Below are positions 1,798 through 54,600 of a stretch of 64,000 bases of DNA, piece after piece. Both the position numbers and the translations under genes were made by a program. The DNA lies in assembly GCA_032358255.1 (NCBI GenBank), contig JAULBX010002556.1, forward strand, positions 62,001 to 126,000, read 5' to 3'. The stretch is from Heterotrichella gracilis (Eukaryota; Sar; Xanthophyceae; Tribonematales; Xanthonemataceae). Each line of letters starts with the position of its first letter. Within the stretch, counting starts at the first letter, position 1. The notes beneath the pieces were generated by a model. It was not told the DNA's origin, searched no databases, and was given only the letters and a program-made list of their open reading frames with translations.

Positions 1798-4700
1798 CTA
1801 GCACGACGCGTCCACTGGGTTGTCCCTGAACCGCCCGTGGTGCGACATGAGGTAGTCAACCTTCTCGGTGGTGTTGTACTTCTTGGCGTCTTCCGGGAAT
1901 CTGCAGCACCAGAAGGTGGGCACCATGTCCATGCGCGCGTCAAAGCGCCGGGCCATGGAGGCGCACGTGAACTGGCGCAGCGCCTGCAGCAAGGGGCATG
2001 CATCAGCATGTATACACGCCACAGTTTTGGTACTACGGTACTAAAGTACAGACAGGTACATGAGAAGTACAACGACAGCACGTGGACAATCCACAATAGA
2101 TGACCCAATGCACGGGGTTCAAAATAACAATACAGGTCATTAGCCGTTTGATTTCTTGTAAATACAAATCAGACGCATTAACCTATAAAGATGCAATACA
2201 AACAATCTCATATTCAAGCTTGCAGTAGATTTCATTGTTACTTGCCTGCATAGGATTTGCCACCCGCATCACCCGATACCTGTCCAGGTATGGGTGCAGC
2301 TGGGAAAGCAGCGCCTTGTCTGTCATGTGGGAGGGGACGCGCACCTCGCCGCTGCCATCGCTTGCAATGTGGGTGTCGAGGTGGTCGCCGGCGCGCACCA
2401 CAAGGACAGAGTCCTGCGGAAGTAGGGTTTAGATGTAAGGGCTAAGGGTTTAGGGTTGGCCATCGGGAAGCCGTGACTCACGGCGTGAGGGCGCCTGCAC
2501 TCCCTACCAAGATTGGGTCCTGTAGTGGCTAGGGTTTAGGGTTGTAGGTTGTAGGGTCCGGCGCTGGTGGCAATGTGAATGGCAAGGAGGCCCGGGCAAC
2601 GACCTGTGGGCAGTGGGATATGGGATTTTCAGGTGGTGGGCGGAGGCATGTGCATGCCTGGCTTCAAGATGGTGCGCAAGGTGGTGGTCTGGAAGGGGTG
2701 GTGGGGGGCCATGGGTATGCATTTTAGCATAGTGCAGGGCATGGACCATCTGCCCACTAGATTTCCCCTGACTTAAAGACAAAATCAATTAGAGATTGAT
2801 GGCCATTGTCCTGGCTGCACATTGGTGCAGATACCTCCATACTCCCATCCTTCGCTCAGCCACCCCTCCACCACTCCCTCACCTTGATGTCCGAGGACGT
2901 CCTGGGATTGTCCAGAAAATTGTACTCCCGGATGTCGATGGGGGTGGCGTCCCCAGACACCCTGGTGAGGGCCCCAGGGTGGAAGATGTAGTCCAGGGGG
3001 CACACAAAGGGGAAGTCGAAGCGGTGGTGGCGGCTGGCAAAGTCTGGCATGCGGCAGAACATGACCGCGTGCCAGATCTTCTCACAGAAGCACATCACCT
3101 GGGGGACAGTAGCAGTGTCAATTGGCTGGGTCAGGAATGGGGCGTTCACGAGTCATGAGGCATGGTGATAGAACGACTTCAGAAGTTTTTTTTCGGTTTT
3201 GGGGTGCTTACATCGGTGCCAGCGTTAGAAGATGACCACGTGCCAGACATTTTTGCCAGAGCCTGGTGGCAATGGAGCAGGAGAGGTGACTTGAGCTGGG
3301 TTGGACGTGGGTATGTTCGCCACATGCAGTGAGTCGGAGTCCCTTCTTTGTGTCAGAAGCTGTGTGTGCTAGCTGGGCCATAGAACAGGCCCTTACCTTT
3401 GGCATGACAAACACCCTGGGCGTCAGCGCCAGCGCCATGCTGCAGTATATTACCCTACGTCCCACATCTAAAACCCTTGGCCCCACCTTTGGCATGATGA
3501 GCACCCTGTTGAGCGCCAGTAACAGCACCACCTACCCGGACAATACCATGATTCTCACCTCCCAAACCCAAAAACCCCCATCTTCGGCATGATGAATACC
3601 CTGTTGAGGGCCAGCGCCAGCATCATGCCGTAGTAATATTACCCTAAACCCAAATCTAAAACCCTACATGCCCCACCTTTGGCATGATGAACGCCCTGTT
3701 GAGCACCATCGCCAGCGCCATGCCGTAGTAATATTACACTTAACCCAAATCTAAAACCCTAATATCCCCACCTTTGGCATGATGAACACCCTGTTGAGCG
3801 CCAGCGCCAGCGCCATGCCGTAGTACACCTGCTCCAGCTGCTGCTGCATGGCGTCAAGGTGGAAGCGCAGCATGGGCTCCGTGTTGTTGAAGTTGTCGTT
3901 GTAGCCGGGGGGGAGCTGCGGGTGGGGGGCGGGGGGCGGGTGAAGTGGGGGGCTATGGTGGTCACATGCTATACTGGGGGCGCCTTTACCCAAGATGTTG
4001 ACATGTATCGGCCACAAGGAGGAGTAATACTAGTGAGCAGGAGTAACACTCTTAGGTAGGATTAGTAGCGGTAAGTAGGGATTCTCACAACAAATTCCAT
4101 GATGGATTTAGTAATTTGCAGTTTAATGGAGGCCTGGTCCCCTGCAGGCCCGTAGCCGGGTAGCTGCCACCAATCCACACCCTACCACTACACCCTACCC
4201 ACCCTACCTGCGGCCACTGCAGGTCTATGGCTAGGTAGTTGCCGTCGTTGTAGTAGTCGGGCGGGTCTGCGCGCCACACCATGGAGTGGCGCAGGCGGTA
4301 CTTCTTGCCGTCGTCCCCATCGTATGCCCATGTGGCATGCACGCAATACGGCTGGACAAGCTTTTGCTGCGGGGACGAAGGGGTGGGGGGGGTAAAGGAG
4401 AGAAAATTGCGGGTGGGGGTTTCAGCGGGCATGGGGCACACTGCAATGAGAAATGTACCCTCCCCACTATTTGCAGCCCTAGGGACCACAAAACCCTACC
4501 CCTAACCCTAGGGTTCATGGTCAGTAGGGTGTAGGGTTTTGCGTCCCACCTTGTGCAGCTTCTGTATGGTGAGCGTGTGGCTGTTCATGAAGATGGATGC
4601 AGGCAGGATGCCCCAAAACACCTCGTTGCCAGGCGCGCGGTAGTTGCCCTGCATGGCAAACAACCAGACTTCAGGTACAGGGCCTCATGTCCTGATAGAA

Positions 4701-7700
4701 GCTTGTGCTGTACAACCTTAGCCAACAAAGTGCTGGTCAAACTTGTATTAAGTTTAAGGTTTTTGTTTTCCGTTTTCGTTTCCACTCACCGACAGCACGT
4801 TAGGGTTCCTAGGGTGCGGCACAGTCTCCGGCCTCCTCCGCAGCACTGTGTACATGTCGTCCTGGTCATGCGTGCGTGAGCCCTCATACAGCGCCACCCA
4901 GTCGTCCAGGAAGCGGCGGCTGCGGGGGTTGTTGCGGAACAAGTACACTCCTGGGGGAGGGGGGAGGGGGGGGTGGGGGGTGGTAATAGAGGGAAAGGGG
5001 GGAGGGGAAGAACAGCGTGGGCAAGGGGGGAATTTTATGGTGGGGAGGTCCCATGTCCCTTTCATCACGTGCATCACCCCTTTTCCCACGCAGCCTGGCA
5101 CACACACACGCACACACACACACACCTCCACCCCACCCGCTCAACTTATATTTATCCCCCACCCACATACACGCATTGGTGTGCGCATGCCCATACGCCC
5201 CCCAGCCCCACCCCACCACTTGTGTGTGCATGCATGCAAGTGTGTATATGGCGCTCCAGATCCTCCACCCCAGGGTCCACATCCCACACATAATCACCAC
5301 CCCTCACCCCAACCCCCAATCCAACCCCCAGATCCATTTATGCAAATGCCCACTTGTCCCCAAATCCTACCACACCCACCCACCCACCTGTGTTTGCATG
5401 CATGCCAATGTGTATATGGCGCTCCAGGTCCTCAACCCCGGGCTCCACATCGCTCACATAGCCATCGTGCGAGAACAGGATGTCCGCCTCCTGCCACCTG
5501 TCAAACAGCGGCAGCGGGTCGCGGAACCACATGCTGTCTGCGTCTGTGACTATGTAGTTGAACCCCATGGCTGCGATCTCGTGAGCTATGATGACCTTGC
5601 GCCAGGTGGCGCGCTTCCACTGGCTGCCGCCCCACTCGATCTCTGGGGTGGGGGAGAAGGGGGGTGAAGGACAGGTATGCCTAGCGGTCTGTTGCTTTAA
5701 GGCATTTAGATCTGGTGGGCGTGTCCCACCCGTGCTTAGGATTTAGGGTTGGTAGCGGGGATGTCGTGTGCAATGAAGACCATGTGCCAGGTGGCGCGCT
5801 TTCACTGGCTGCCGCCCCACTCGAACTCTGGGGGTGGGGGGAGAAAGAGGATGAGGGGCGAGGGGCATACAATATGCCTAGGAGCCCATTGTGTAAGAAA
5901 TTCCCCACACTCATGTGTAGGGTTTAGGGTTGCAGGGGCGACCTCGTGTGCAATGATGACATTGTCTGTGGAACTGGTGGGATGCATGTGAGTGTGCAAT
6001 GATTGCATTACTCCAGGTGTCAAGTTTCCACTGGCTGTCGCCACTGCCACCGCCGCCTCCACCACATACTTCCCTTGACAATAGAAAAAAAAGAAAAAAA
6101 AGAATAAACATTAAACATATGCTCCTGACAGTCCAGCAGCTGTCATGTTGATGTCATGATGATAAGATATACTTATCAACTCCCGCCGCTCCACCCCCGC
6201 ACCTGAGTCGTACTTCCACGCTCGCGTCTCGTTGCTCCTGAACCTGAAGCACGGCACCTGGCGCTGCAGCAGCCAGCCCTCGGTCTCCAGGTCCATGGCC
6301 TCGATGAAGTAGTAGTTGATGCCAACCTGGCGCAAGCGGGGGAGGTGGTTGATCAGAGTGCCAAACTGGTGTGCTCTTAAATTTGTGCCAGCGTCAATGT
6401 GTGCAAATAATGCGCGCTAGAATGGTGCTGATGATGGTCCTAAATGGTCCGGAAGTGCCATGTGTGCCCAGGTTATGTGCCCAGGTTGTGCCAAGACTGG
6501 TGCAAAACCAGCGTGCTACATTGTGCCCTGAATTGGTGCTAGCTGGATTGGCTGGAGCGCATTTAACCACCCACCCACCCACCTTGCGCAGGCTTGCGAT
6601 GAGGTTCTCCCCAAAGTCCCAGTGCTTGAGGTTGAGGGTGGAGAACATGATCACGTTGCCGGGGGTGGCGCGCGTGGCCAGCAGCTCACGGGACAGAGGC
6701 GGGCAGTGGGGGCCGGGGTCGCTGGCGGTGGTGGATTGGCCTGCAGCATTTGGCAGAGGGGGATTGGACAGGAAAGTGTGCTTCCCAAGGATCTGAAAAA
6801 TGGTGACAAGACAGAGGTGGGAGGCGCAAAAGGTGCCACGAGATAAGGCTGTACTACACACACGTATGTGCCTGGAGGGGCGCCTGCCCGGCCCCCCATC
6901 ACCCGGTATCACCCCCCCTGCGATTGAGGTGCATCTCCTTTGCTAGGGACTCTATGCCCGGCTTGGCAACTGCATGTGGGACCCCACCCACCTCACCCAC
7001 CACCATATACACCCATCTGGCTGCACTAACAAAGACGCAAGCAGCTGGCCAACCAACCCACCTGCTGCAGCGTCAGCTCGCCCCCCGTCGCTGCCGGTAT
7101 CATCCACCCTGCCCTCGGGGTGCATCTCCTGTGCCAGGGACTCGATGCCCGGCTGCAGCAGCGCCACAGCATCCTCCACGCGTGACCCCACCCCCACCCC
7201 CGCCTTGCCCAGCTGATCTGCATGTGTGTAAAAAACCCTTCAGAGGGTGTGGAGCTTGCCAAGGAGAGGATGCGTGGATGTGGAAGTCCTTTCATGGACA
7301 ATGGCAGGGGATTGCATGCACGAAGCTGGTATTTTGCACCACACAATGCCTACCATGCCGCCCACCACCACAGCACCCGAACCATACCATGCAAGCCCCC
7401 ACCATACCATCCCCCAGCCTCCACCCCCCACCTGGATACGCCGCCGCCACCGCCGGCACCATCACCACCTCCACCTCCAGCCCCTGATCCTCCTCGACAG
7501 CCACATCCACACCCGCAAACGCCTCCGCACCCCCCTCCCCACCACCACCACCCTCTTCTTCCACCCCCAGGATTGCATCCGCTGCCCGCACATCCTCCTC
7601 AGCTGGCTTGAATGAGGATGCATCGCTGCCTAAGATGCCGCTGCTGCCGCGCTGCCTGGCGTCATTGCTGGCCGCGATGTGCGAGGTGGCCTCCTTAGGG

Positions 7701-9166
7701 TCGTCGTTAGGGTTTTCGGGCTCAGGGTCATCTGGCGGGTCGGCGCTGGAGTCATCTACCGAGCCGCCGTTGAGGTTTTTGACAGGAGGGTCATCGCTGG
7801 GGATTTCCTGGGGATAGTATGCTGTACTTTGCGTCCCCGTGCCAGAGGGCCCAATTTCGATCTCGTCCTCTGGCCCCATGTGGGTCAAATCCACAACCAT
7901 GGGCTTACCCTTGCTGGGGGTTTCCTCCTCGTCACCTTCACCACCAGTAGCTACGGGATTTTCCTGGGGATGGTCTGCTGTACTTTGCGTCCCCGTGCCA
8001 GTCCCTGTCGGCCCTATTTCGATCTCGTCCTCTGGCCCCATGTGGGTCAAGTCCACCACCATGGTTTTACCCTTGCTGGGGGTTTCCTCACCCTCACCCT
8101 CATTGCCAGTAGCCACGGGCTCCCCCCCGCCTGTGTCGGTGCTGTCTACAGGCTGGGCTTGGGCATGCTCCATGTCCTCCCCTTGACCCTCCTTGTCCCC
8201 TTCCAAGCCCACAGCCCCCAGGCTCTCACCCCCTTGCAGGTCCACAGCTTTGCCCCCTCGCAAGTCCACAGCCACGCCATGAATACCCTCGGTGGTGGAT
8301 GCACCACCTGCTTGCTGCCTTGCCACCTGCTGTGCTATCTGCTGTGCTAGAAAGGTCTTGGCCCGCTGCCGCTGGCTGGATTGGTCCCTCTCTGCCCCCA
8401 CCAGCCCATCCCCTGCCACCTCCCCTGCCAGCTGCTTCGCACCCTTCACCCCCTGCAACAGAATAATATGATAATGATGCAAAAACCGCTGCACCCCAAA
8501 AGAGGCATGCGCAACTCTCGGGTGGAGCAATTTCTGGTCTTAGGGAGGCGTGCAAAGAGCAAGTCGCGCCCAAAATGCAGGAAAGTATCCACATAAATCA
8601 GTAATCCTCCCAGCACCCCCTGGAACACTACGGGTGATGTTAGCCTCAAAACCCTGCAACCCCACCTCCCACTCAGAACCCTAGACCCTAACCTCAAAAA
8701 ACCATAGATTTACCCGAAACCAGTGCCCGCAATGCCCTCTTAAACCCCTTGAACAAGGTTTAGGGTTTGAGTTCAGGGTCTAGGGTTTCACCTTGATCAG
8801 CCCCTCAATCTTGCTGAAGGTGCTCACCAGCCCCGACTGGGCCTGGTCCACCAGGGAGGCGTGTGTTTCTCGATCCCCGGAATCCGCAACCCTGGTCCCC
8901 AGTCTGGCCCCTTGGGCCCCCAGCTTTGCACCAGCCGAGGCCCCTTCTGAGAGCACCTGTTGGTCCAGCTGCCTGCGGTGGTCGTCTAGGGTGCGGCTGG
9001 CGGAGAGTAGCCGGCTCCCTTTGAGGTGTACCAGGTAATACAGCATGCCTATCACCACCACCATGGCGGCAGTCAGGCGGGCGAGCCTGCGGGTGGGTGG
9101 GTCACCATTGGCGTGATTGAGTGGGTGGCGGGTGGGTGGCCATGGTGAAGAGAGCGGGTGACCCAC
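1798..9166 (-). CDS. XEG113: GT77 glycosyltransferase, XEG113-like arabinosyltransferase
   Basis: Likely Golgi type II glycosyltransferase related to plant XEG113, which extends arabinose chains on hydroxyproline-rich wall glycoproteins. Exons (5' to 3'): 9166-8792, 8452-7432, 7217-7062, 6740-6583, 6326-6203, 5642-5388, 4950-4790, 4648-4550, 4366-4208, 3915-3772, 3098-2883, 2413-2246, 1983-1798; 1073 aa in phase. A membrane anchor lies at residues about 33-48 behind a basic N-terminus. A long acidic linker (exon 2) follows, then the catalytic part. The nucleotide-sugar DxD motif is D645-A-D647 in VTDADSMWFRDP. Family landmarks follow: CVHATWAYDGDDGKKYRLR, ALNRVFIMPK and MCFCEKIWHAVMFCRMPDF. 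The intron after exon 12 uses a GC donor. The acceptor substrate in this organism is unknown: algal extensin-like proteins are inferred, not shown. The first methionine is the longest choice; exons 2-3 are supported mainly by phase. Confidence 0.82.
3396..3771 (-). repeat. 95-bp tandem copies of the 3' edge of GT77 exon 10
   Basis: The exon 10/intron boundary, which begins on the plus strand as CCTTTGGCATGATGAACACC at 3771, recurs at 3676, 3581, 3486 and 3396. The spacing is 95, 95, 95 and 90 bp. Each copy contains part of the exon coding for ALNRVFIMPK, the donor, and intron sequence with CCCTAAA-like blocks and ATATTA. Copies have diverged by substitution. Confidence 0.9.
5099..5127. repeat. 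(CA)n microsatellite in a GT77 intron
   Basis: A dinucleotide CA run with one interruption inside intron 6 of the GT77 gene. It is noncoding. Confidence 0.85.
5757..6060 (-). repeat. Degenerate copies of the 5' edge of GT77 exon 6
   Basis: The start of exon 6 (5579-5642 on the plus strand) reappears at about 5763-5835 with high identity, including its acceptor context. More broken copies lie at about 5943-5980 and 5995-6050. All lie in the intron upstream of the exon, so each brings a decoy 3' splice site. Confidence 0.85.
7790..8130 (-). repeat. In-frame tandem repeat in the GT77 acidic linker
   Basis: Exon 2 of the GT77 gene encodes two near-identical units of about 45 residues. Each contains MVVDLTHMGPEDEIEIGP followed by a Gly/Thr-rich stretch, a YPQE/HPQE step and an acidic SKGK segment. 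The copies remain in frame and differ by a few residues, indicating a fairly recent internal duplication in a spacer between membrane anchor and catalytic domain. Confidence 0.85.
8755..8790. repeat. Telomere-like heptamer block next to a splice donor
   Basis: Several TTTAGGG-like units with variants sit immediately downstream (in the sense of the minus-strand GT77 gene) of the exon 1 donor. This is one of several dozen such blocks in the window. Confidence 0.8.
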
Positions 9167-13700: not shown

Positions 13701-15524
13701 TTCTCTGCAGAGCTGCCCCCCCCTCCCTCTGGCCCTGAGCGGCCCTTCCTGAACCTGCCCACCAACAAGGGGTCGAGCAGCGACAGGCCCAAGCTGCAGC
13801 TGCAGCCCCGCACGCAGCCAATACAGGTGAGGGAATGAATATTCATCTCTCATCACATTAGGGAGCCGCTTATAAGGTATTAAAACGTACTGGAAAGGTT
13901 TTTGGCAGGCATTTTAATTCTAGATTGTTCAGTTATTATGTATCATGTAGTAATTACCCCTCAATGAATCTGCGGCCTTGCATCAGGGGCTCACACATGG
14001 GTGCTGTGCTGCACCCCATATGTGTCCATGTGGCACATGCAATGCACGCACCAGCATAGCCTTGTAGCACGCACATCACCATGGCGCAAGCGTGGCCTGG
14101 TAGAACCCCACATGAGAATCGAACGCCCACGCCGCCGCCTTGCCTCACCAATCTGTACCAAGTAGATAAGACAAACAATCATGAATAGGCATGACATAGA
14201 AAATTATGGTAATGACTGGCATAAAAGAAATAAATATTAGCTGAATGCATGCACCCATTTGCTGCAGCAGGAGGCACCTGGTGGCGGCACCTTGCCCCCA
14301 CCCGCCAGGCCCAAGCTGGTGCTGGAACCCAGGAGCAAGCCGCTGTCACCCGAGGGGGCGCCCCGTGTGGATGATCCCCGCAGGCCCAGGCTCAACCTGC
14401 AGCCGCGCAGCAAGCCTGCAGGTATGAATTTGGTGTATGGGGTTCAGGGACTTCGCTTTGGTTATCTTGTTCCCTGCCATGGCAAGCCAGGGGATGGTTT
14501 GAGTAGCAATACCTATAGGGCTTGTGTGCAATGGGTTCACAGCAGTGCAATGTTACAGCGGTGTGGGGGCGGTGGTGCTGACTCAGGATTTGCCGTATGT
14601 GCAGGGGATGGTGTGGAGGCCCCGAGCGCCATCTTTGGCGCAGCTCGTCCCAGGGAGCAGGTCCTAAAGGTGCGGTCACATGGGTTTAGGGTTAATGTGT
14701 AAAGTTATGTTTAGGTTTGGGGTTTGGGGTTGTAAGTGCAGGTCCTGAAGGTGCGGTCACATGCGCATTTAGGTTTTCACCTGCATCAGATAACCAGCGG
14801 TGAATACGCACTGGCTGTACCGCCTGTCACATGGTCGGCTGTGATTGGGGCTTGGCTGGGTTACAGCTGGTGTGATCATGCAGTGGGTCATGGCTGAGGC
14901 ACACAGCTCTGGTCAACTGTAGAAACATGACACCTGGCGGCCATGCCACCCATCCGCGTCACCCTATCTGCGGCACACATCAAGCTCCCTGCCCCACCCG
15001 CTTTCCATCCCCCCTAGCACCACAAACTCAATAAATTCCAATTCCCTCATTACAATCATCACCATTATTACAATTTCCACCCGCAGGACCGCGGCGTGGA
15101 CCCCACTGAAGCCGAGCGCGAGCCCGCCCCCCGCCCCTCCACCGCCGCCTCGGCGGGCGCCGCCTCCAGCCACGCCAGCATCGACAGCCACAGGGAGCGA
15201 GCCGACGCCGACTGGCACGTAGTCACAAACCGCAAGAAGCACGGCGGGAGCGACCATGACCAGGGCTCGTCGGTGCGCAGCCAGTCGTACCTTGCCGACG
15301 CGGACGACGGCTTTTTCGGCGGGCGGGGGAATGGCGCCGCGGCGCCGGCGCGCGCGTTTGGCGGGATGCGCGGGGGGTCGTATGAAGACCGTGGGGGTGG
15401 GGGGTACATGGACGCGTATGGCGCGGGGAGGAATGGGGGGTACGACCAGCAGGAGGATGGGGTGGTGGAGGTGAACTACGGGCCCAAGCGCGCGCTGCCC
15501 ACGCGCCACGACGACTGGTTCTGA
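10742..15524 (+). CDS. EIF4B: eIF4B-like disordered translation factor
   Basis: Probable eIF4B-type protein, an RNA-binding cofactor of the eIF4A helicase in cap-dependent translation. Exons: 10742-10848, 10955-11114, 11439-12394, 12715-12955, 13296-13497, 13711-13826, 14268-14421, 14605-14669, 15087-15524; 812 aa in phase. The N-terminus reads MADKHAKKPQRMSLKQFYEE. Exon 3 encodes over 300 residues of Tyr/Pro/Gly/Arg-rich low complexity. The diagnostic part is C-terminal: repeated basic motifs RPKLQLQPR, RPKLVLEPR and RPRLNLQPR, then IFGAARPREQVLKDRG. These match the RPRLNLxPR and FGxAKPRExVL motifs of animal and plant eIF4B. The protein ends in a Gly-rich tail, LPTRHDDWF. No RNA-recognition motif is evident, as in plant eIF4B. 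Length and low complexity make the family call moderately, not fully, certain. Confidence 0.72.
12964..12990. repeat. Telomere-like heptamer block after eIF4B exon 4
   Basis: TTTAGGG-type units lie within about 10-35 nt of the exon 4 donor. They are intronic. Confidence 0.75.
14741..14763 (+). repeat. Copy of the 3' edge of eIF4B exon 8
   Basis: The exon 8/intron junction at 14660-14682 recurs 81 bp downstream with one substitution in the first 23 bases. It includes a second potential donor (AAG|GTGCGG). TTTAGGG-like sequence separates the two. Confidence 0.85.
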
Positions 15525-16546: not shown

Positions 16547-19500
16547 TCACAGTTTTGCCTTGATGCACTGCCACACCCAACGGCCGCCCACGCGCTGCTT
16601 CTTATACTGGTAGCCAGGCTTGCAGTGGTTGGGAGACACCCGCGCAAAAACGCCGTTGGGCAGCGGGCGAAAGCACCCCACGGCACCGTTGAACACCCGC
16701 TGGCCAGACCCGCGAGGGCATTGCACTTTGGTTGCAGGTACCTGCAATAAAGAAAGTTTATTATGTAGAAATTGATCGCAATCTAACATTTGGATTTAAT
16801 GCGTTACACGAGACGTGTACTTCATATTATGAGTATACTACAAGTGCATCGCCTGCTGCTGCAGCAGGGGCCCAGGCAGTTGGCGCTTGAGCCTTGTGGT
16901 TGTCAACTGACGGTTAATTGTAGATTGCAAATTGCACTTGACATGTTGCCATGTGCAGTCATCTGCTTTGTGGCTGAATGATTATGATCGTTATTGCACC
17001 CCTAGCTGGCCACTCGTCTGTGAGGCACAGAGTGTCAACCTGCCGCAGCCAGGCAAGGATCACATGGCTGGCCCTGAACCCTAAACCTACAACAAATTGG
17101 CACGGGTGGCAACCTACACATTTTCAATGTGGGCAAGTGGCTCGCCATCAGCCCAAAACCTAAACCCTAAACCTTATAACCCTAAACAATCCACCTTAAG
17201 CAACATGGCCCATCCGAGCCTCGGACTGATGGCAGTAAAACATTGTGGAGCGCACTGTGCATGTTGTTATGTGGGGACTGGTCCAGGACCAACTCCCCGT
17301 GATACTCCTATACTCTACACAACGAAGGAGAGGGCGCATGCGTACCGGGATTGGCTTGGGTGATGGTGGCGCTTTTGGGCCTGCAGGCAATTTGTGACAT
17401 TCATCAGTGCTATGTGCGTGTGAGGTGAAGCAGCCATTGCTATTCATAAAGTGCCATGTGGCACCTGGATGTGCACAGACCCCAGCAGCCAATCCCCAGA
17501 TACTGCATGCCACCTCGTGGTATCAGATACTCTAGACTAGATCAGATTTTCTCACTTTTATCACGTTACTTTCTGTGTGAGGTCATGATGACAACAGCAG
17601 GACTGATGGCAGTGGGCTGGCCAAACAGTGTCACACACATAACAGTATAACTCATCTGTGGTTTAGGGTTTTGAACCTTTAGGTTGACAAACCACGATGT
17701 GGCTCACCCGCGGTTTTAATGCAGGTTGTGGTTTCCACGGAGTGGCCTTGATCAGAGTTTAGGGTTTGGGGCTTAGGGTTTACCTGGTTTGTCACTGCAT
17801 GTGGTTGTCACAAACTGGCTTGTGAGGATTGACAGTTTGGGGATGGTGGGCCCTTGCCACCCAATCCCCCAGGCGTTGAACTTCCAGTCCCCCCACAGGT
17901 CTGCACTGAGGGCCAGGGGCCCCTTGGAGAGATGCACGGTGAGGTTCTGGACACCTGCATATACAAATACAGTGACTGTATTTGTATAATGCTGTAACAG
18001 CACTAAAGTGGATACTACATGAATACATATCATGTCATTGATGAGGTACACAAGTTGTCGTGAAAAGATACTGCATTTGCATTTGCATGTGCATGCGCAT
18101 TCACATCCTCACACTCAGATCCTTCCATGGGGTAAACGTAAACAGCCCAAATACTAGTATCAGGTGGGCATCGAGGTTGGCTACATCAGAAAATTGCGCA
18201 TACAGGAGTATTGTAACAAATGCCAGGACAGGGCAAAGTGGCGCTTTCGTGTGCCTGGCTGACTGCTCCTCTGGCTGTACTGCTCAAATGCATATAACTA
18301 ACCAGCTGTAAAGTGTGGGTTGCAAGACGAGTGGGGAGCGTGATCGTTCCTTTAGGGTTCAGGGCTTGAGGATTAGGCTGTAGGGGTTTTTATTTATGGC
18401 TGAAGGCTTTGCAATTTAAGATAACAGCGCAAGTTTAAGCGTTGGAATATAGGATAGCAGTGTGTGTAATAGTATCTGGGACAGGAGGGTGTCGCACCAT
18501 ATATACCACTTGCAGGAACGGTGGCATGGCTTCCGATAGAGAATCTGGCTTGCACATCAGCAAACATCCTGAATTTGTATGTCCCATCCTGCAGTCCAAT
18601 AATGTTTGTCAACCCTGGGTTAACCCTAAAGTCTGACCTTAAACCTTAAAAGCTAAACACAAATAATGGATTCGCACAGGTCAGGGGGGAATGGCATAGA
18701 GCTTATACCGGCAGCACTTCGATTGTGGTGACATTTGCGGTATGCAATCTATCAACAAGCAAATGCACATATATTACATCTTGTGCGCAGGCAATTTAGC
18801 AAAAATTCCCATGCTTAATTGACCTGCAGGCATGGAAGGCGGCTGTCTTGCTGGTGTGGAAACATCTCAACCAGCCAACTATGTATCTAAAGCTTAACCT
18901 GGCCCATTTACGTACCTGCGGTACATGCAGGCATGCAGAAACTGACAGCTGAAAGTCACCCGCCAGCAGGTTGTCTTTATTTACTGATGGGTGGCAAAGG
19001 CTAGCAGTGGAGTGGCTGTGTTTGGTGGCTGGGCTTTAAAACCTGAGAGGGGCAAGATGCAAAAGATTTCAGAAGACACAAAAGAAAAGCCTCCAAAAGG
19101 AACACAGTTATGCAGCCTGTCTGGGTTAGCCATGCACGCTTGTCAAGGGAGACTTTAGTCAGCAAAGACAAAGACCAGCGTCAACAAAGACAAAGACATT
19201 GGTCCACTCAATAGTATGTCCTCCACCATGTGGGTCAACCTTCAAATCCTAAACCCTAAACCCTAAACCCCTACCTTGCAGGGGGTCAACCCTGTACTGG
19301 CCCTCGTGCTCATCCATGCTGTTGAAGTAGATGTAGGGCTCAGTGGCGGTGAAGCTCGGCTTGCTTGGCAGCGGTGCAGGGTCGGTACCGGATGCCACAT
19401 CATTGAGCGGCTGGTAGGGCCCATAGTCTTGCATGTTGTTCGGTAGTGAGGACTGGCCCCACCAGTAGTACTTGACCTTGAAACCTGACGGGGTGTGGGT

Positions 19501-19858
19501 TTGGGGTTAGGGGTTGCAGGCAAGGGTGCGAAAGCTGTCTAGGGTTTAGGGTTTGGGGACTGGCCCATCAGTAGTACTTGACCTTGAAGCCTGCACACGT
19601 CGTTTGGGTTTCTACACCTAAAGGGTTTGGTGGACAAGGCCTAGAGTTCCTAGGGTTAGGTTTGACTGAACCCTAGTATGTGCTACATAGCACCTGCCTC
19701 GCTGCCACCGGTAGTTTAAGGTTTAGGGTTTTGGGTTGAGGTGTTAGGGTTTAAGCTTGCTGCCTACCTGCCTCAGCTGCCACCGTGGTGGGTCTGCAGC
19801 ACAGCGCCAGAAGGGTTATCATCAGCCACATCAGCATGCGTTGCCTGCTACTGCCCAT
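16547..19858 (-). CDS. Secreted protein with PA14-like domain
   Basis: Predicted secreted protein. Exons: 19858-19768, 19484-19275, 18614-18507, 17954-17784, 16782-16547; about 271 aa in phase. The first exon encodes a signal peptide (basic MGSSRQRM, then hydrophobic LMWLMITLLALCC, cleavage near VAAEA). The mature part follows the PA14 pattern: FKVKYYWWGQSSLPNN at the front, DGTYKFRMFADVQARFSIG in the middle, LTVHLSKGPLALSADLWG, then WGIGWQGPTIPK. PA14 domains often bind carbohydrate and occur in adhesins and glycosidases. The C-terminus is Cys/Arg-rich. The last exon is uncertain: the best-looking acceptor (TTTCTTTATTGCAG, exon from 16740) would shift the frame, so I used a weaker in-phase acceptor. 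The start could also be an upstream in-frame ATG at 19954. Function is inferred; a cell-wall or surface role is only a guess. Confidence 0.6.
19246..19272. repeat. Perfect telomere-like CCCTAAA run at a splice donor
   Basis: Three consecutive CCCTAAA-type units (TTTAGGG on the sense strand) directly follow the donor of exon 2 of the PA14-like gene. The donor itself reads GTAGGGGTTTAGGG. Confidence 0.9.
19549..19600 (-). repeat. Copy of the 5' edge of PA14 exon 2, with a stop
   Basis: The first about 40 bases of exon 2 (19449-19484) are repeated upstream in the intron together with an acceptor (GTGTGCAG). In the copy the codons for YYWWG have become YY-stop (TGA), so use of this decoy acceptor would end translation. 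Confidence 0.85.
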
Positions 19859-36179: not shown

Positions 36180-39100
36180 ATGGCAGCAGCTTTGGTCCTG
36201 GAGGTCCCACTGGAGGCCCCAGCGGCGGTCGCAGACGGCGTCATGGATCTAGCAGACGTACGCATTGAAGTGTTATCTTTGCCACATCAAACCGGTGTGA
36301 GGGAATGTAGTTCTGGCTTGGCCCATATGCATGCATGCCACATAAAATTGCACCTCTGACCACCTCTGACCGTCTCTGACCGTCTCTGGCCTGCCCCTGC
36401 TGCAGTATGAGGCAGTTTTGGACGTACCAGTTGAGACTCTTCGGACGATACGGGACGATTTCGTGCTCGAGGTACGTGCGAGCACCTCTCAAGCAGTGCA
36501 TAGTCAGTCACCCACAATTGCTGACTGTACAATCGCAGATTGCCTCGATGGTGATCCACACCCAATTGACTCCTTACAACAACGTCTACACAGCATTCCC
36601 TGCCAAAAGTGCCTTTAGCAAGGGCCAGGTTGGGTTATCTGTGCCAAAGTGCACTTACGTGTCCATGTCTGAACCCTAGACCCTAGACATTGAACCTACA
36701 CCCCCACAAACCCTTTGGTGGTATATGCAGATGGCCAAGGGTCTGGCGGCTGAAAAGGGCGCTAAAGTGCTGATGCTACCAGCTATGCTCGACGGTTTGC
36801 CAACAGGGTGAGCAGTGAGCAATTGTTTGCAATCAACTGCACCCCAGTGTGCTGCACAATTTTGCAGGCTATCCATCGTGATCTATTGAGTGCTATGGAC
36901 AAAACCTTCCTGCTGCTTGGCTCTGAAATTATTTACACGACAGCCCTCTCAACAAACATTGTTCGACTAATTTACATCTAGTTAAGTTTGATTTGTGTAC
37001 TTATCAATCATGTGCCACTCCGCCACGGTGTCCTTTTAAGTGGATGCTGCTCGCACTCCTGCGCAGGCACGAGACGGGGGAGTGCTTTGCCATCGACCTG
37101 GGAGGGACCAACTTCCGAGTGATGTACATGAAGCTGTCAGACACGCACCATGGAGTGGTGCGCAGGCTTTGAAACCCTACAGCAACTTTAGCTTGTGGGG
37201 CCCGTTGCCATTGTTAACCCTGTGGAATGAATACCATATGAAACTCATTGCTCTCTGTCAACTCCACCGACCTCATCTACTTCCACCTGACTACTTACTC
37301 ACAGGGGGTTCAGCCATCTAGCCAGGTCAGCAGTCAGTCCTTATATGTGTTGCAACCAGTTTCAACCCACCCACCCAACTTGCTGGTATCATATAACCCT
37401 GTCATACCTGCAGCCTCCAAGAAGTTTTCCATTGCCACATGCCGCACCTGTTTGACTATCTCGCCACCTCCAGAACAGAATCAAACCGGTGGCCCATCAA
37501 ACCCAATCAAGATCCAACACTTGGCCTGCAGGATCGCATGGAGGTTGAATCTGTGCCCATTCCTGAGGAGCAGTTCCACTGCCACGCCACCGAGCTGTTT
37601 GATTACATCGCGCGCCACATGGTCAACTTCATGCAAAAATGGTGCGCAGGGGACGCGCAGGCGGGCCAGGGCTTAGGGGGTTTAAGCAGGCCACATGCGA
37701 GATCAAACATGCAGCAGTGTTGGCGTGTATTATATAATATAATAATTTATATCCAATATTGGAATTTGGATTCCAATATCCAAATATGGTAAATTTCCCC
37801 CAAAATTGGGTCTTCGTAGTTGCTTGGTCTACCGTGTACAGGATTTGCATAGATGTAAGTAGTCACTAGGGAGCCAACATGGGCGGAATTCAAGAATGGT
37901 ATTGCGGCAGGTGGGGACAGGCAGTATGAACTAACCATGTATTTCCCCTCAAAATGTTGCAGCTGAATTCAGCGCCCTACTCCCCATGCGTCAATGCAGC
38001 GCCACCCCCCTCCCACCGACCATTGTCACCGGTGCACAGTGCGCAAGACCCACCCTCACCCTCAATGAGCGGGCATGCCCCTCACACACACACCCCCACC
38101 CACCACCCGCAGGGCAGAGTGCTGTCAAGATGGTGCCCATCGTGCGGTGTGGGTTCAGCCTCCCCATAATGCAGTGCGCTCTGAACAAGGGAAAGTATAA
38201 CCCCTAGTCACAAATATGAATACACCCCCACCTTCCACACCCTCAGCCCCACCCTACCTCACCCTCACCTCAGCACGCCACCCCTCGCACCCTGAAGCCC
38301 ACCTCTCCTACCCCTCAACCCACCACATGCAGGGCCTCCGAGTGCGCAAAGACTGTACCCGTGGTGGGTTTTGGGTTCAGCTTCCCCATGGAGCAGTGCG
38401 CTGTGAACAAGGGCACCCTCATCAAGTGGACCAAGTCGTTCACCAACGAGGGCGCGGTGGGCGAGGATGTGGTGAAGTTACTGCGGGAGGCGTTTGAACG
38501 ACAGGGGAAGAAGGTCAAGGTGGGTGGGGGGCACTGTATGCAGGTATTGGTTTGTGTCCTTGCCATGCACCGACAAGGCTGCAGTCTTAAGCAATTGCTC
38601 GAAATGGTATTTTTGTGGGGGGAAAGGAGGGTGAAAGGATTCCCTTGGGCCAATAATGGGGGGATTCAAACCACAGGGGAGGGCGGTGAAGGTAGTTGGA
38701 TTTGGAACAGTATACAAACTACAGGGCTCTGGGTAGAGAGTGGGTCAGCAAATCTGGGATCCAGGCTTGTGCTACCATTGTTGCAATCTGGTGCCCCATG
38801 CAGCGCCAGGACCCTTTCATGCATCCCTGTCAAATTGGCCATTGTGTGATTCAATTTCGTCAATGCCGTCCCGTTTTTAAGAACCATGCGGTACACATGT
38901 GATCAGATAGCGCGGTTCTTCGTGCAAGAGTGCACAACACCCACTTCCACCCTCCATCGTGCACACTCCATATATCTGAATGACACTGCTATCATTGTCC
39001 TTTTCCAACACCATTCACCCCCTCCTTAAGGTCCTTGCAGTGGGAACAACACGGCACTGCTATGCTCTCTCCCCCTTCCAGCATACCCCCTTCCCACATC

Positions 39101-45439: not shown

Positions 45440-48248
45440 TCAAAACCATCCAAACAGGCCCTTCTTCTTCCCCTTGTCGCCCGCTGCCCCTGGCGTGCCA
45501 ATACCCTTGAGGTCGACTATCACCACTGCCACGTTGTCGGTGGTGTAGCGCTTGCCGGCCAGCTTTGAGAGCTCATCGGAAATGGCCTGCGCGTGCATAC
45601 CCCTGCTGAACTGCTTGCTCACCCAGCTCACAGCATCCTCGCTCGGCATCACATCCCTGCACATGGGGAGCAGCTGCGGTCTATACACACGTGACACAGG
45701 TGCCATGCATCCACCAACAGTGGCCACCCGCCATGCACTCCTGTTCTTGCAACCTGCTGTCAAGTACAAGCCATAGACCACATGTTCCGTCTTCATGCAT
45801 GTATGCAGCATGCTTACAGCCAGCATGCCCTGTGCCACCAGCCAATCATAACAAGGACACTAGTGCCATCACCCTGGTCAACTTCACTCACTGACATGGC
45901 AGAGTGGCGCATGCTGGTGACAAACCCTAAACCCTACACCCTAAAGTTGTAACCACCCAAGCCATCCGTAGCCATGGTGAATGTCGCAGCATGAGGCTTA
46001 CCACAAGCCATCAGTGGCGATGATCAAGAAGGAATCCTCTTCTGTCAGCGGCTCCACAACCACATCTGGCTGGGAGATCACCAAATCGCCCTTGAAGTCC
46101 ACACCATCTGCAAATTCCTGGGACCACATGCCCTCCCTGGGATGCGCACCACACCACGTCAGCCATGGGGAAGCTCACATCACAACCCAATGCTGTGCCA
46201 TAGTGTTGAGACAACATAGGCATCGGCACCTAACACCCTGCAGTTTGCACGTCGAGACCATAAGAAGCTGTTGTGCGGACCAGATGCGTGCTTGCACCAA
46301 TATATGTTCCCTTGGGAAGCACTTAATTGTAATAATGCACCACCTACACTATGTGCATGCTGTTCATGGCTGGCAGAGGTGAAGGAGGTGCTTACTTGAC
46401 GCCCGTTTGTAGCATGTTCTGCAAGCCAGCACCTTTGAAGTCCACGTCGCCAAAGGCTCGGGACACCGCCAGTATGTCGCACACCCGCCCATCGTGCACC
46501 CAGCCACCCAGGGACTCAACACGCTGGATCTCCTCCTCAACTGAAGCTCCCCGGCCATGCAACCTGACGTACCATGCATCACAGCAGTCAGAAACTAATT
46601 AGCTTGAGCTTTACTTAGTAAAAAAGGCGCCAAAATTGACCTTGTGAGATCAGCACTCACAAGCTGCGCAAAATGAAGGGATAATATATGAAGGGATAAT
46701 ATATTGGGGAGCAGCCTGTGTAACAGTATTGATCTCGCTGTACGGCTTAATTGCATGTGACTCACAACTAGCAGCCATACAGAATGGCAGGCAATAGCTT
46801 GCCTGACTGCAGTCAGTGCAGCAACTCGCACACACAAGCAGGCTCTGTCATAACGCCTGCAGCGTTAGTCAGGTGGTGGACAAGAGGACCATCCAACGAC
46901 AGAGGGGTAGATAGCCAGTAGACATCCAGCTTCTGATTGGCTCGCCAAAGTCATCGGTTCTCACTGGCTGTCTTGCTGGAGGGTTTAAGAGGATAGAGCC
47001 CTAAACCCTAACCCAATGAACTATCTAATATGTTCACTCACCGGTGCTCTGCTGACAGGTTCAAGGCCCTGCCATTCCGACACAGCACTGCCCGGCTGTC
47101 GCCTATGTTGGCAACCACCACCTGGTCGCTGCGAACCAGTGCCACGGTGGCTGTGGCGCCAGAGTTGTGCGCCTCCGGTTCTACCTTCCCAAGAGCTGTG
47201 GCAGTGGGAGTTCAATGAGAACCACCGGGTGGAGTTAGAGCAGTGGGGTGCAGTGTGCGAGTGTTGTTTGGTATATGAGCTACGTAGGGTGCAGTGTGCA
47301 AGTGTTGTTTGGTGTATGAGCTCCGTACCTGACAAGTGCTTGAGTACCGCTTTGTCCGCCTTCTCGAAACATAGCCGCATCACTTCTTGTATGCCTGCAG
47401 AAAGGACCCAACTTCAGCACTTCGCAACCCGGTATGGTCATTGTTAAAACTGCAACCTGAAAGCGCCCCGGCACAGCAAGCTGTGCAACGAAACCTTGGA
47501 AACCACGTCACCTTCAAGCTTGGCAGGGTTCTTTGCAAGCCTCTTGGCGTCCACTGTCTCAGAGAAGCAGGAGTACAGCCCCTCGCTCAGGAACTCTGCA
47601 GCTTGGTGCCCGCCATGGCCATCAAACACAACTGCAGATGGTCCACTCCGTCTTGGAGAGGGTCCAACAGAAGACAGACAGGAGACCACACAAAACAGTA
47701 ACCTTTGCCTGGTGCACAACCCCACCAGGTTTAATATCAGCCACCTGCCCCCAGCAAACAGGAACCCCAGGCGCCCACAAAGAATGACCTAAGTGTAGTC
47801 CTAGAGGTTGTACAGTTCCCACCCAACACCTCAGAGACCATATGAAATAATGATTTTTGCCTGGTGCACAGCCCCACCAGCTCTGAAAACAGTGCTTACC
47901 GGCAAACAGGAACCCCAGGCGCCCACGGGGGACGACCACAATGTAGTCTTCCATGCTCTCACGAGGGCCTTGCAATGCAGCTGTGCCATAGAAGAGTGGC
48001 TCGCTGTACTTGTGATCCCAGGCTTCTGCGTCCAGGTCGATGCTGCTCTCACCAGGGGAGGAGGTGTTGGGTGGGAACTGCAGGCTGTTGTCTGTCACAG
48101 CTTGCAGGCGATGGGTTCGAGTCGCATGCCGTTGATGCGGCAAGCCTCGTTGCAAGGTTGGGCAGGAGGTGACTTCCACCCTCCTGAAGGTTGTACCTTG
48201 GAGGTGGCTGGTGCTGTGCGTTGCAGTCATACCGTACTGTGCTGCCAT
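45440..48248 (-). CDS. PPH1: PP2C phosphatase, TAP38/PPH1-like
   Basis: PPM-family Ser/Thr phosphatase most like plant TAP38/PPH1, which dephosphorylates LHCII in thylakoids and reverses state transitions. Exons: 48248-47900, 47631-47512, 47394-47329, 47195-47042, 46563-46396, 46136-46002, 45656-45440; 402 aa in phase. The N-terminal about 90 residues (Thr/Arg/His-rich) may be a plastid transit peptide. Metal-binding and core motifs: MEDYIVVV, VVFDGHGG (117-124), SGATATVALV, NIGDSRAVLCR, ILAVSRAFGD, IIATDGLWDVM and TTDNVAVVIVDL. TAP38-like segments are the EEIQRVESLGGWVHDGRVCD block and GVDFKGDLVISQPDV. The C-terminus ends KKKGLFGWF; a C-terminal membrane segment as in Arabidopsis TAP38 is not seen, so substrate assignment is tentative. 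Confidence 0.85.
47700..47806 (-). repeat. Copy of the 3' edge of PP2C exon 1 in its intron
   Basis: Two blocks, CCTGGTGCACA.CCCCACCAG and AAACAGGAACCCCAGGCGCC, repeat the exon 1 end and following intron (47860-47955) about 155 bp away. Confidence 0.88.
47815..47832. repeat. Inverted 18-bp copy of exon 1 sequence
   Basis: These 18 bases are the exact reverse complement of 48061-48078 in PP2C exon 1. The two arms are about 230 bp apart and span the exon 1 donor, so a transcript could fold across it. Confidence 0.85.
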
Positions 48249-48930: not shown

Positions 48931-49919
48931 ATGGCCTATCCTGAAGAACCACCGATACAGTACAGGTAACAACGAGTGATCCCTTATTGTCAAGTGGTTG
49001 TGGCAGTTTTACCACGCAATAACTTTGCAATTAGTGACACTTTCACAAGGACCATGGGAGGGGTTTCTGCTGCAAGCATAACGTGATGGCACTCGCCTTT
49101 GGCGTTGGCGACAGGATCTAACGCTTTGTGGCCGTTCTTGCAGTGAGAAGTATTATGATGAGGTCTACGAGGTGTGTGGATTCCTTTGATTCCGCTGTTG
49201 GGTCCTTTTTTCCTGGGGTTGCTTCCCTCAAAGCCGCTGCTCATTGCTGACCCCCTGGTGTGCTTTGTGCAGTATCGCCACGTTGTTTTGCCACCTCATG
49301 TAGCCAAGAGGCTGCCAAAGGTACTGCAACTTGAGGCTGCATACCACAGCAGCCGAAAACAAGTTCCTGGAATGTTGCTGTACAGAACACTGGTGCCCCT
49401 TGGTGGAGATGGGTTCTTGCCTTGCTCAAGCTCATAGTGGGGCAGTCCTTACCATTTTGAGGCTTCTTTCAGACTCTTTCAGACAGCTCCAACCTTCTGG
49501 GTGCAACCATACTCACCTGTGTCATTTCTGTACACAGGGAAGACTGCTCAGTGAGAATGAGTGGAGGTCACTTGGGGTGCAGCAGTCGCGCGGGTGGTGT
49601 CACTACTCCATTCACAGGCCTGGTGAGAACGGCCTTCAAGCCCTTCCTCTGGCAGCTCTTACCATATAATTTTGTGTGCACCACTGGTGGTGATCAAACT
49701 CTGGCCTTTTCAACACCGCTAGGTTTGCTGGTGCAGAACCCCACATTGGTCTAACGCTCCACGGTGCAATGTTGCTCTAACGTTTAACGGTGTGCTTCTG
49801 ATGTAGAACCACACATCCTATTGTACAGAAGGCCACGCACGGACCTGCCTGTGCAGCAGCTCCAAGGCCACGTCCAGCAGCAGCAAGCAGTAGAGCCTCA
49901 AGCTCATCATCTCAAGTGA
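48931..49919 (+). CDS. CKS1: CKS1 cyclin-dependent kinase regulatory subunit
   Basis: Small CDK-binding adaptor required for cell-cycle progression; it binds phosphothreonine on CDK substrates. Exons: 48931-48965, 49144-49171, 49273-49320, 49538-49622, 49807-49919; 102 aa in phase. The sequence follows the family almost residue by residue: [73 protein letters not shown]. The Gln-rich tail resembles plant CKS1. The usual HxPEPH hinge and phosphate-site residues are present. The start codon is the only plausible one. A second version of the terminal exon lies immediately downstream. Confidence 0.95.
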
Positions 49920-49945
49920 CAGTATGCTTGTCCGGAGCGCATCAT

Positions 49946-50046
49946 TTCACATTATGCTTTTCCGGAGGCCGCGCACAGACCTGCCACCGCAGCCTCCCGT
50001 GCACCAGCTCCAAGGCCAAGTCCCAGTGCAGCAAGCAGACGTCTAG
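49946..50046 (+). pseudogene. Second copy of the CKS1 terminal exon
   Basis: About 100 bp downstream of the CKS1 stop, an open stretch of 33 codons (49948-50046) reads [15 protein letters not shown].. and ends at TAG. It is clearly homologous to exon 5 ([15 protein letters not shown]..) and is, in its first residues, even closer to the plant consensus. No acceptor in the right phase directly precedes it, so it may be a decaying duplicate, but an alternative last exon cannot be excluded. Confidence 0.75.
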
Positions 50047-51615: not shown

Positions 51616-54600
51616 CTACGACGACAGCTGCATGACCTTCACGCTCCCCTGGCTGTTTGCGGCTAGTAGCGTGTGGCTCTTTGGCTTCCAGCACACCGCG
51701 CTGATGAACTGCGAGCTGTCGTTCAGTGGCGGACTGGTCAAGCCAGAGAAATGGAGGCTGGCCATGGGCTTGGACATGGACTTATAGTACACAAACACCT
51801 GGGGCAGGGGGGAGGCAGGGGGGGTCAGCAAGGATCTCAATTTCAACCATTGTGATTTTGTGCGGCCACAACTGAATACAGGCAATAAGCCAATGTCGGC
51901 TTGGTACACCTTTCACTGTGTCTGTAATACACATGTCGACTGTGAGGTGCCTGGCCAATGCAGACTGCGCCATAATAGCCAAGTTCTGCCAGGTGCACGC
52001 CACCCCTCAGCTACAAACTACATCCCTGTACTCATAATCCTTTTCTCCACCCAGATTTATCCACCAGGTCAATCCCACGCTCAAACCACAAACAATTTAG
52101 AAGCCACACCGACTCCATGCACCCTAGCCCAGGTGCACAAGCAAACCCCCCACCCACCTCATTCGACTCGCTCCCGCATGCCACCAGGTCGTTCTCCACG
52201 CTCAGCCCCACAAAGTTCTTCTCGTTGGTGTGGCCGCTGAAGGTGCGCGCTAGGCACATGCGCTTGTTGTCCCACAGCTTGAGGGTGGAGTCGGTGGAGG
52301 CGGACACAACCTCGCTGGTGCTGATGTAGCGCACATACGAAACAGCCTTGCGGTGGCCTGGGGGAGGGGGGAAATCCAGTCACTTGTGCATGTTTTGAAG
52401 GGATATTTTTGTCAACTTTGCATGTATTTTGGTGGAGGTTGACACCACCTCGCTGGGGCTGATGTAGCGCACATCTGAGTCAGCCTTGCGGTGGCCTAAG
52501 CAGGGGAGAAGTCTTTTGGGACCCTGGTCAGATGGCCAAGACAAGATCCCTTCCAAGAATTCCTGAGCAGTGGCCCTTGGAGGCAGAGCAATTTTGTTGC
52601 ATTTAACACATTACCAAATTGTATTTTGGTAATGTCGACACTTTGTTGACGCTTCTGTATCGCACTATACACGCACTCCTAAATAAACTCTACTGCATTT
52701 TGCTACAACGAATCACAAAGTGGTAAATTTTTGGTGAACAACGAAGGACTTGGCACCAAGCTGCGCACCTTTGAACATGTGCAGCGGCGCGGTGGGGTTG
52801 CGCAGGTCATAGAGGTGCACATTGTGGTCTGCGCTGCCCACCACCACCTCGTGGCTGACCATGGGGTTGTACTTGACGCAGCACACGTTGGCCTTCACGT
52901 CGATGCAGCTCACGGCGCCTGGCTGCTTGGTGGACCATACCTGGGGGAAGAGGGAGTGGGGTGTGGGTTAGGGTTATTTTGGTGGATGTTAGAGTTTAGG
53001 ATTTAGGATTGAAGTTTAGAATTCAGGGTTTAGGTTTAGGCGGCCGGCTGCTTTCCTGGGGGGAAAGGTTGGTAGCGCATTTTGAGCTTATGATGATGAC
53101 TGCACAAATTAATCAAAATGCACACTCCATATTTGGACGAATCTCTGTAGAATCGCATTGATCATTATTGATCACTTGCACCACCAGGTTGGCCCAACGC
53201 CCACACCCATTCATCGCTTCCATCCCATTCATCCACCACCCCACATTGTCAATACCACCCCCATCACCCCACCATACATCCCACCTAATCCTCCCCCACC
53301 ACCCAGCCGCACCTTGACAAAGCCATCATCCGACCCCGACACCAGCAGCATGGGGTCCACCTGGCAGAAGTCCACCGACCAAATCCGCTTCTCATGCGCC
53401 TCGTACTCCATCACCGTGGTGGAGTTGCTCACGTCCCAGATGGTCAGCATGCCCTCGTAGTCGGAGCTCACCAGGTAGTGCTTGATGTAGGCGTTCCAGG
53501 ACACGCAGCTGAGCTTGCTGCGGGTCATGAGCTCCAGCACCGGGAGGTGGTTCTCGGCCCCGGGGTTGGCCACGATGGTGGGGAACTCGTAAAAGCTGGC
53601 GGGGACGGAAAACGTTTGTTAGCTTGTTTGTGTGTGCGTTTTGAAGGCTTCTTTTTGCTTTCCATGGTGAGGAGAGTGTATAGGCAGTGGACAGGCCCTC
53701 CAGGACAAGAGATTATCACCAGAGAGGGAAGCATTGACAGTGTAAAGGATGTTTGCAAACGCGGCAACGGCCAAGCCGCTTCCTGCGCGCTATACCTCAA
53801 ATGCAAGGCCACAGGCACACGACCCAGGGCACACCCTTTCCATAACACCCCGGGCCAGTGAGGACATACGCAGGTGCAAATATGATGCCAGAATGGGCAC
53901 CACTGGCTCAGATTTTCTACTTCAGAGTTTAGGAGCCCATGCGCATGACCATCATACCTGATGCGCTTTGAGACTCCTGCTGTTGCAAACAGTCGCCCGT
54001 CCCTGTCAAACTCTATTGAGGAGAGGATGGAGGTGGAGCCGCGCTGGTTGGTGCGGGGGATCTCAGCCACAATCTGCAGGGAGCGGGCAGGGGTGAGATA
54101 TGGGTATGGGTAAGGGTATTGGTGAGGGTAGTGATAAGGGTATGGGTAAGGGGGGCAGGGTGAGGGTGAGGGAGCAGGCATTGGCGATGAATGGTGCATG
54201 GCCAGCCACCAATGCGCAGCATCCAAGCTGGTAGGCCTGTCTGGTGGGGTGTGGCTGTGCATGCATGTTCCGTGCACCTTGAGCTTGGTGCCTTTCACAG
54301 ATCGGAAGCCATAAGCTTTAAACTCTAACCTCTACACCCTACACAGGGCAGCCCCGTGCACCTTGAGCTTGCTGCAATTTGTGAAGACCGACAGCATGCG
54401 CGAGAACTCGTGCAGCGCGGAGCGGTTCTGGGGCGCAGCCGCGGCTGCAGCAGCAGCAGCTGCGGGCGCCAAGGCCTGGTCCGCCACCGCTGCCGGTGCT
54501 GCTGCTGCGGGGTCGCCAGGTGGCGCAAGGGCGGGTGCTTGGGGGTCCACGCGCGGCCGCTTGGCGGTGGGGCCCTCGTCTGCGCCCAGGTCTGCAGCCG

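Follow-up and report, generated by a model that had tools for sequence, protein, structure and literature searches.

Local direct duplications across exon-intron junctions and their association with a telomere-type heptamer in the xanthophycean alga Heterotrichella gracilis

Genes of the xanthophycean alga Heterotrichella gracilis carry short, local, direct duplications, which cross exon-intron junctions more often than in any run of a simulated null and in nearly all trials of a permutation null, and which are associated with the heptamer TTTAGGG/CCCTAAA, in all likelihood the telomere repeat of the genome. We analysed a stretch of 64 kb (hereafter the window; positions 62,001 to 126,000 of contig JAULBX010002556.1, assembly GCA_032358255.1), whose coordinates are used below unless stated otherwise, together with the rest of the same contig except its first 2 kb, 142.5 kb in all; the assembly holding the contig comprises 68.5 Mb in 903 contigs. 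Self-blastn, tandem-repeat and direct-repeat comparison detected 22 clusters of local direct duplications in the window, from 3,395 to 52,497 (Table 1). Seventeen cross a predicted junction, and the others comprise two exon/intron pairs, one pair of coding end and downstream DNA, one intron-only cluster and one labelled intergenic. The original prediction, made from the letters of the window alone, had claimed such duplications at about 20 places, which was right given the 22 clusters, all of which lie inside the span it indicated or at most one base from it.

On the whole contig, a pair of segments was regarded as local when self-blastn scored it at 40 bits or more within 1.5 kb. The 92 local direct pairs obtained stand against no local match at this score in a dinucleotide-shuffled contig (one copy), and were accompanied by three local inverted pairs and 27 direct pairs separated by 1.5-15 kb; raising the threshold to 50 bits left 75, zero and two, respectively. 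Break repair is expected to leave short, local and direct copies, neither inverted nor dispersed, and the contig shows this pattern. A low-complexity filter removed five of the 92 pairs, and the remaining 87 formed 58 clusters: 39 junction-crossing, six exon/intron, six intron-only, three at coding ends and four intergenic, a label that is wrong in some cases because the gene model missed a CKS gene. The lesser involvement of intron interiors and of intergenic DNA, the latter also noted from the letters of the window, therefore holds for the contig. An introner or transposon would recur at many unlinked sites; a genome-wide search with only the 601 bases around the cluster at 24292 returned the cluster itself and one 71-bp match at 79%. 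Exons and introns were labelled by an ab initio exon-intron hidden Markov model trained on the contig together with 30 WD40-gene loci elsewhere in the genome. The model converged on CAG/GTGAG-like donors and YGCAG-like acceptors, and predicted 178 introns with a median length of 311 bp and 199 exons with a median of 148 bp on the contig.

The junction bias was compared with two nulls. When the clusters were moved at random in 2000 trials, junction clusters numbered 18.9 on average and 31 at most versus the 39 observed, a number that no trial reached in either of two runs; on the 142.5-kb contig, duplicated segments thus straddle predicted junctions more often than shuffled positions do. No cluster of the 58 has both copies in coding sequence, versus 2.4 expected by permutation. 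The second null was a forward simulation of 120 runs, in which duplications were placed uniformly on a de-duplicated contig, events confined to coding sequence or spanning several junctions were rejected, and introns decayed neutrally and exons slowly. The ratio of junction clusters to junction plus intron-only clusters was 0.44 on average and 0.688 at most, versus 0.867 observed, and that of junction to intergenic clusters 2.0 at most, versus 9.75, in simulations that yielded 37 clusters on average rather than 58, assumed even mutation and an unfitted intron turnover, and started with four residual clusters, two of them intron-only. Self-matches among heptamers were considered as a source of the signal and rejected, as the bias persisted after masking: 34 junction, seven intron-only and three intergenic clusters remained when exact heptamers were masked in the contig (34/41), and 27, seven and three when heptamers with up to one mismatch were masked outside coding sequence (27/34). 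Both shares are higher than in every run of the unmasked simulation.

Both edges of exons are affected, in accordance with the original prediction: 25 donor and 18 acceptor boundaries are duplicated contig-wide. The aligned units contain, as medians, 44 nt of exon sequence and 35-38 nt of intron sequence, with the junction on average at their midpoint. In 14 printed alignments the layout is exon and intron start, a spacer, then a copy of the exon piece followed by a copy of the intron start, with the mirror image at acceptors. According to the gene models the second copy sits in the intron, and 52 of the 178 predicted introns overlap an exon-anchored duplication. Best-pair identities in junction clusters range from 72% to 98% (72% to 96% without the cluster at 25445-25996, which bears an assembly gap), so that copies from nearly identical to decayed are present, as had been read from the sequence. 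Pooled identity is 88% for the exon parts and 81% for the intron parts, a difference that constraint on one exon copy would produce. Of the 58 clusters, 32 have a spacer of 10-200 bp with at least 80% of its length in introns, although such a spacer may itself be a decayed part of the unit.

The association of the duplications with the heptamer is a new observation. The contig contains 1,418 occurrences of TTTAGGG/CCCTAAA and their rotations, versus 115 in shuffles. CCCTAAA arrays begin at least two contigs of the assembly (C70 and C140, among the best 100 of 209 matches), and the heptamer is thus very likely the telomere repeat. Contig-wide, heptamers occupy about 5% of intron sequence, 0.4% of coding sequence and 1.1% of the remaining DNA, and the sense strand favours CCCTAAA (1,949 versus 1,172 bp); AAACCCTA reaches 2,777 copies per Mb in introns, as against 193 in coding sequence and 403 elsewhere. 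Heptamers make up 13.6% of intron bases inside duplication spans versus 3.5% outside, and 17 of the 32 spacers bear one versus 5.5 expected, the largest of 2000 draws being 13. Within introns, heptamer density peaks in the first 60 nt. Few copies of sense-strand TTTAGGG lie close to the acceptor, and the resemblance of TTTAG to an acceptor may be the reason. Double heptamers, though few, are likewise more numerous towards the donor: ten within 80 nt of a donor, four within 80 nt of an acceptor and 12 elsewhere in introns.

The junction bias reaches beyond the window and recurs on other contigs. Of the 30 WD40 loci seven were dropped for overlap, and the 23 kept bear nine junction, four exon/intron, one intron-only, three intergenic and two coding-only clusters, although WD40 repeats as such may account for at least one junction call (L042) and for one coding-only call (L025); as these loci also trained the gene model, they are independent in place and not in labelling. 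Their introns contain 1,203 copies of AAACCCTA per Mb, their coding sequences 206 and other DNA 495. Genome-wide counts that require no gene model agree: the donor motif CAGGTGAG is followed by the telomere motif TAGGGTTT 428 times at 5-35 nt versus 96 times at 205-235 nt, and CAGGTGAG is paired with itself 151 times at 75-105 nt versus 44 times at 375-405 nt, ratios that overstate the gradient within introns because overlapping matches are counted repeatedly and the far windows may leave the intron. Controls with reversed patterns gave counts of 0 or 1. As a further algal control we had taken positions 100001-200000 of contig C1 (L011-L020), which have a G+C content of 35% versus 54% and only five local direct repeats that score 40 bits or higher; this contig probably belongs to a different organism within the same assembly and was dropped for that reason.

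We consider it somewhat probable that the duplications arose by error-prone repair of staggered breaks flanking or near exon-intron junctions, often with telomeric filler. Two nicks on either side of a junction, or close to it, would produce a staggered break, whose ends would each bear the same 40-200 nt. Fill-in, presumably of the CST/Pol alpha type, and end joining would then generate two copies, frequently separated by telomeric heptamers, a filler that telomerase or capture of telomeric DNA would supply. Whichever copy is cut off from the remainder of the exon would become part of the intron, and repeated rounds would give rise to clusters, a longer intron and decoy splice sites. In mouse and human cells, the small duplications that form at 3'-overhang breaks require CST and Pol alpha-primase, which also carry out fill-in at telomeres (PMC8355091). 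Telomerase acting on free 3' ends near transcription is a model proposed for plant telo boxes (PMC3022908). We infer that the two may belong together; this connection is made in the present analysis. More tentatively, it is possible that junctions are recurrent break sites in this lineage, healed by telomere-type fill-in and repeat addition, in which case introns would grow mainly at their ends and continually make decoys.

Several results weigh against this repair at junctions. The permutation, a cruder and more conservative test than the simulation, gave a weaker bias: the junction share among genic clusters was 0.643 on average by chance, so that geometry alone explains much of it, and the largest trial reached 0.926 versus 0.867 observed. 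In the repeat permutation six of 2000 trials reached 0.867 (eight when single best pairs were moved), and with exon/intron clusters counted too the observed share was reached by eight trials for clusters and 12 for single best pairs. Regarding the filler, 15 of the 32 spacers lack an exact heptamer, the heptamer share of spacer bases (0.096 versus a mean of 0.033) lies inside the null range, whose largest value is 0.102, and heptamers within the copies supply part of the excess inside duplication spans. TTTAGGG to the left and CCCTAAA to the right was not the order seen in spacers, the mean position being 0.50 for both; extension of both break ends by telomerase, head to head, which predicts that order, was accordingly rejected. 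No break-site motif was found, and none was searched for.

The junction itself may be the cause, through splicing-linked breaks or R-loops as originally suggested, yet breaks throughout exons, of which only the junction-reaching ones survive selection, would look alike. If exons broke commonly along their length, being open, GC-rich or fragile, and selection purged the coding events, the bias would be a by-product. The absence of clusters with both copies coding, the small numbers of intron-only and intergenic clusters and the mid-unit position of the junction are all in keeping with this explanation. Nevertheless, heptamers, which are visible without any exon anchor, occur more often in the first 60 nt of introns than midway along them, and coding-end clusters are few (3/58) even though an untranslated copy should be tolerable (untranslated regions are unmapped here). 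We hold exon-wide breaks to be a rather doubtful account. Alternatively, interstitial heptamers near intron ends might stall replication or break, and repair would duplicate about 100 nt around them, into the exon. Heptamers are indeed present within copies, and not in spacers alone, and they concentrate towards the 5' splice site, but some young duplications bear no exact heptamer in spacer or copies (window offsets -44616, 96%, and -50586, 88%), and the idea only shifts the question to why heptamers are there. It appears unlikely.

Duplication at random is another candidate, if selection removed coding events and neutral decay hid intron-only ones, leaving those anchored in exons visible. 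Random placement by itself puts 0.44 (simulation) to 0.64 (permutation) of genic clusters across a junction, the observed share was attained in those six of 2000 permutations, and exon parts decay more slowly. However, none of the 120 simulated sets, which included these effects, reached the observed ratios, no permutation in two runs of 2000 reached 39 junction clusters, and the faster decay of two neutral copies would account for about a factor of two at most. Chance with survivorship is an improbable explanation in our judgement. Finally, mis-joined reads could have made the repeats, and the cluster at 25445-25996 does contain a 100-N gap flanked by identical 74-bp copies. An assembly artefact is nonetheless very improbable for the set as a whole, as the best pairs of the other junction clusters are 72% to 96% identical and exon parts are less diverged than intron parts.

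The original prediction had regarded the duplications as an engine of intron growth and decoy splice sites, and the contig agrees with it: copies lengthen introns, and they share the splice dinucleotide of the original at 29 of 34 donor and 23 of 27 acceptor boundaries, a count that includes some model exons inside copies. The dinucleotides are kept at 0.85 versus about 0.64-0.81 expected from the identity of their neighbourhood, so decoys are not purged fast, and purging of decoy sites was rejected on this ground. The TrpRS exons neighbouring the cluster at 34026-34212 match residues 229-296 and 300-342 in a single solved structure, so that no more than three residues could fit between them and the decoy copy has no place there. 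Heptamer DNA, which the prediction had named, is associated with the duplications as described above. The tandem duplication of AGGT-containing segments as a route to intron gain is not supported: an upstream copy crossing the donor with a downstream copy crossing the acceptor was found in none of the 92 pairs. As far as the gene models can tell, the geometry appears to be that of extension of existing introns and not of AGGT-type intron gain.

Table 1. Clusters of local direct duplications in the window, with strand and gene assignment
Position	Strand	Gene or locus	Duplication	Remarks
3395..3825	-	GT77-like	About 4-5 copies, period ~95 bp, donor-side exon end and intron start	Heptamer-like DNA in unit
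5207..5460	-	GT77-like	Donor-side, offset 168, 86%	
5575..5857	-	GT77-like	Acceptor-side, offset 185	Exon matches Pfam Nucleotid_trans (5389-5640)
6891..7154	-	GT77-like	Exon piece copied into intron (exon/intron pair), offset 189	
7800..8119	-	GT77-like	Donor-side tandem, offset 155, 85%	Copies adjoin
14657..14776	+	Predicted gene 11455-15524	Short, donor-side	eIF4B-like name not confirmed
19447..19611	-	Predicted gene 19155-19822	Acceptor-side	PA14-like name not confirmed; CCCTAAA-type filler on sense strand
21964..22099	-	MutS2-like	Intron-only	Sole such cluster of the window
22234..22677	-	MutS2-like	Decayed, multi-copy, donor-side	Heptamer-rich
24292..24685	-	MutS2-like	Three copies, period 142, intron end, acceptor and exon start	
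25445..25996	-	MutS2-like	Near-identical copies	Heptamer spacer; 100-N assembly gap 25622-25721
26161..26410	-	MutS2-like	Donor-side, offset 196	
27804..28004	-	MutS2-like	Donor-side, offset 121, 88%	
28929..29120	-	MutS2-like	Donor-side, offset 129	
29417..29663	-	MutS2-like	Exon piece copied into intron, 33 bp, 94%	
32009..32210	+	TrpRS	Donor-side	Heptamer-like intron parts
34026..34212	+	TrpRS	Acceptor-side	Neighbouring exons aligned to PDB
34662..35017	+	TrpRS, terminal exon	Piece copied downstream of predicted coding end	
38090..38413	+	Hexokinase	Acceptor-side, offset 220, 76%	
47682..47948	-	PP2C	Donor-side, offset 152, 74%	
49848..50038	+	Labelled intergenic	Short, 43 bp, 84%	About 180 bp downstream of CKS-matching open reading frame 49304-49666
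52293..52497	-	COP1, WD40 exon 52158-52357	Acceptor-side	Decoy exon start in intron

Seven of the nine gene names originally given to the affected loci are backed by Pfam, namely the sugar transferase, MutS2, TrpRS, hexokinase, PP2C, the WD40 protein and CKS, and the eIF4B-like and PA14-like names were not confirmed. Nine of 20 predicted exons matched at E ≤ 0.01 in two rounds: two exons of hexokinase (one below cut-off), a PLP enzyme, PP2C, two WD40 exons, a sugar transferase, tRNA synthetase 1b and MutS domain V (E 5.5e-5, below the curated cut-off). The sugar-transferase gene, which belongs to Pfam's nucleotide-diphospho-sugar transferases, is presumably GT77. Alignments to PDB entries back two TrpRS exons and one COP1 exon, the latter lying elsewhere in the same predicted gene as the duplicated WD40 exon and giving the gene its name. 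Ten further pieces, seven of them plain open reading frames, yielded a single Pfam match, to CKS, in a reading frame absent from the predictions of the hidden Markov model; a text pattern for the CKS motif had given no match when searched. Rfam (at gathering scores) and tRNA scans of the window returned no matches. In the MutS2-like gene, two extra copies on the minus strand (24430-24501 and 24572-24650) were called small exons by the gene model, and the copy number in the cluster with the 100-N gap is untrustworthy on account of that gap. A two-exon gene for a Cys/Met-metabolism PLP enzyme (Pfam; 42121-43668, plus strand), with a third-position G+C of 0.85, bears no detected duplication, whereas its neighbours do. 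Few genes were predicted at 57700-64000 of the window and in the flank to about 82000, the G+C content is lower (0.47-0.52) at 58-64 kb, and beyond the window, at 66513-67002 in its coordinates, lies one 235-bp duplication at 99%.

How introns lengthen and new splice sites originate is poorly known, as few fresh events have been caught. Here, events of many ages stand side by side, with a telomeric signature and a junction bias beyond neutral simulation. If breaks do focus on splice junctions and telomere machinery heals them, splicing, break repair and telomere enzymes would be linked in a manner testable in one alga. Junction-biased duplication with telomeric filler was not found in the literature that we searched by title and abstract opening, with few subscription papers covered.

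Known systems resemble the present one in part. Duplications dependent on CST/Pol alpha-primase (PMC8355091) are likewise short, local and direct and are made by fill-in machinery that also serves telomeres, but they follow induced breaks in mouse and human cells, and the available sections mention neither telomeric filler nor a bias to splice junctions. Capture of nearby DNA during repair (PMC2671141) includes tightly linked duplications no longer than 619 bp, some of which contain splice sites; among its human donor sequences, partial exon/intron ones number only 4 of 824 (Table 2 of that paper) versus 39 junction-crossing clusters of 58 here, which is a contrast and not a measured ratio, since detection methods and intron sizes differ. 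Intron gain by tandem duplication (PMC3443670 and PMC4974935) is a further relative. In the case of a potato RdRp gene (PMC4974935), the 3' part of an intron and the 5' part of the next exon were duplicated, as in our acceptor-side units; a new intron arose there, whereas existing introns were apparently extended here, the exon/intron to intron/exon geometry being absent (0/92). Plant telo boxes (PMC3022908) also place a telomere motif within genes and, in Arabidopsis, are found more often in the first two introns. Nevertheless, the accessible text of that paper reports no link to duplications, and AAACCCTA is enriched in Arabidopsis 5' untranslated regions (680 per Mb), with introns near the genome average at 151 per Mb versus 2,777 in the introns of our contig. 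Each part of the system in H. gracilis is therefore known in print: duplication by break repair, duplication of a junction in one potato intron gain, and telo boxes.

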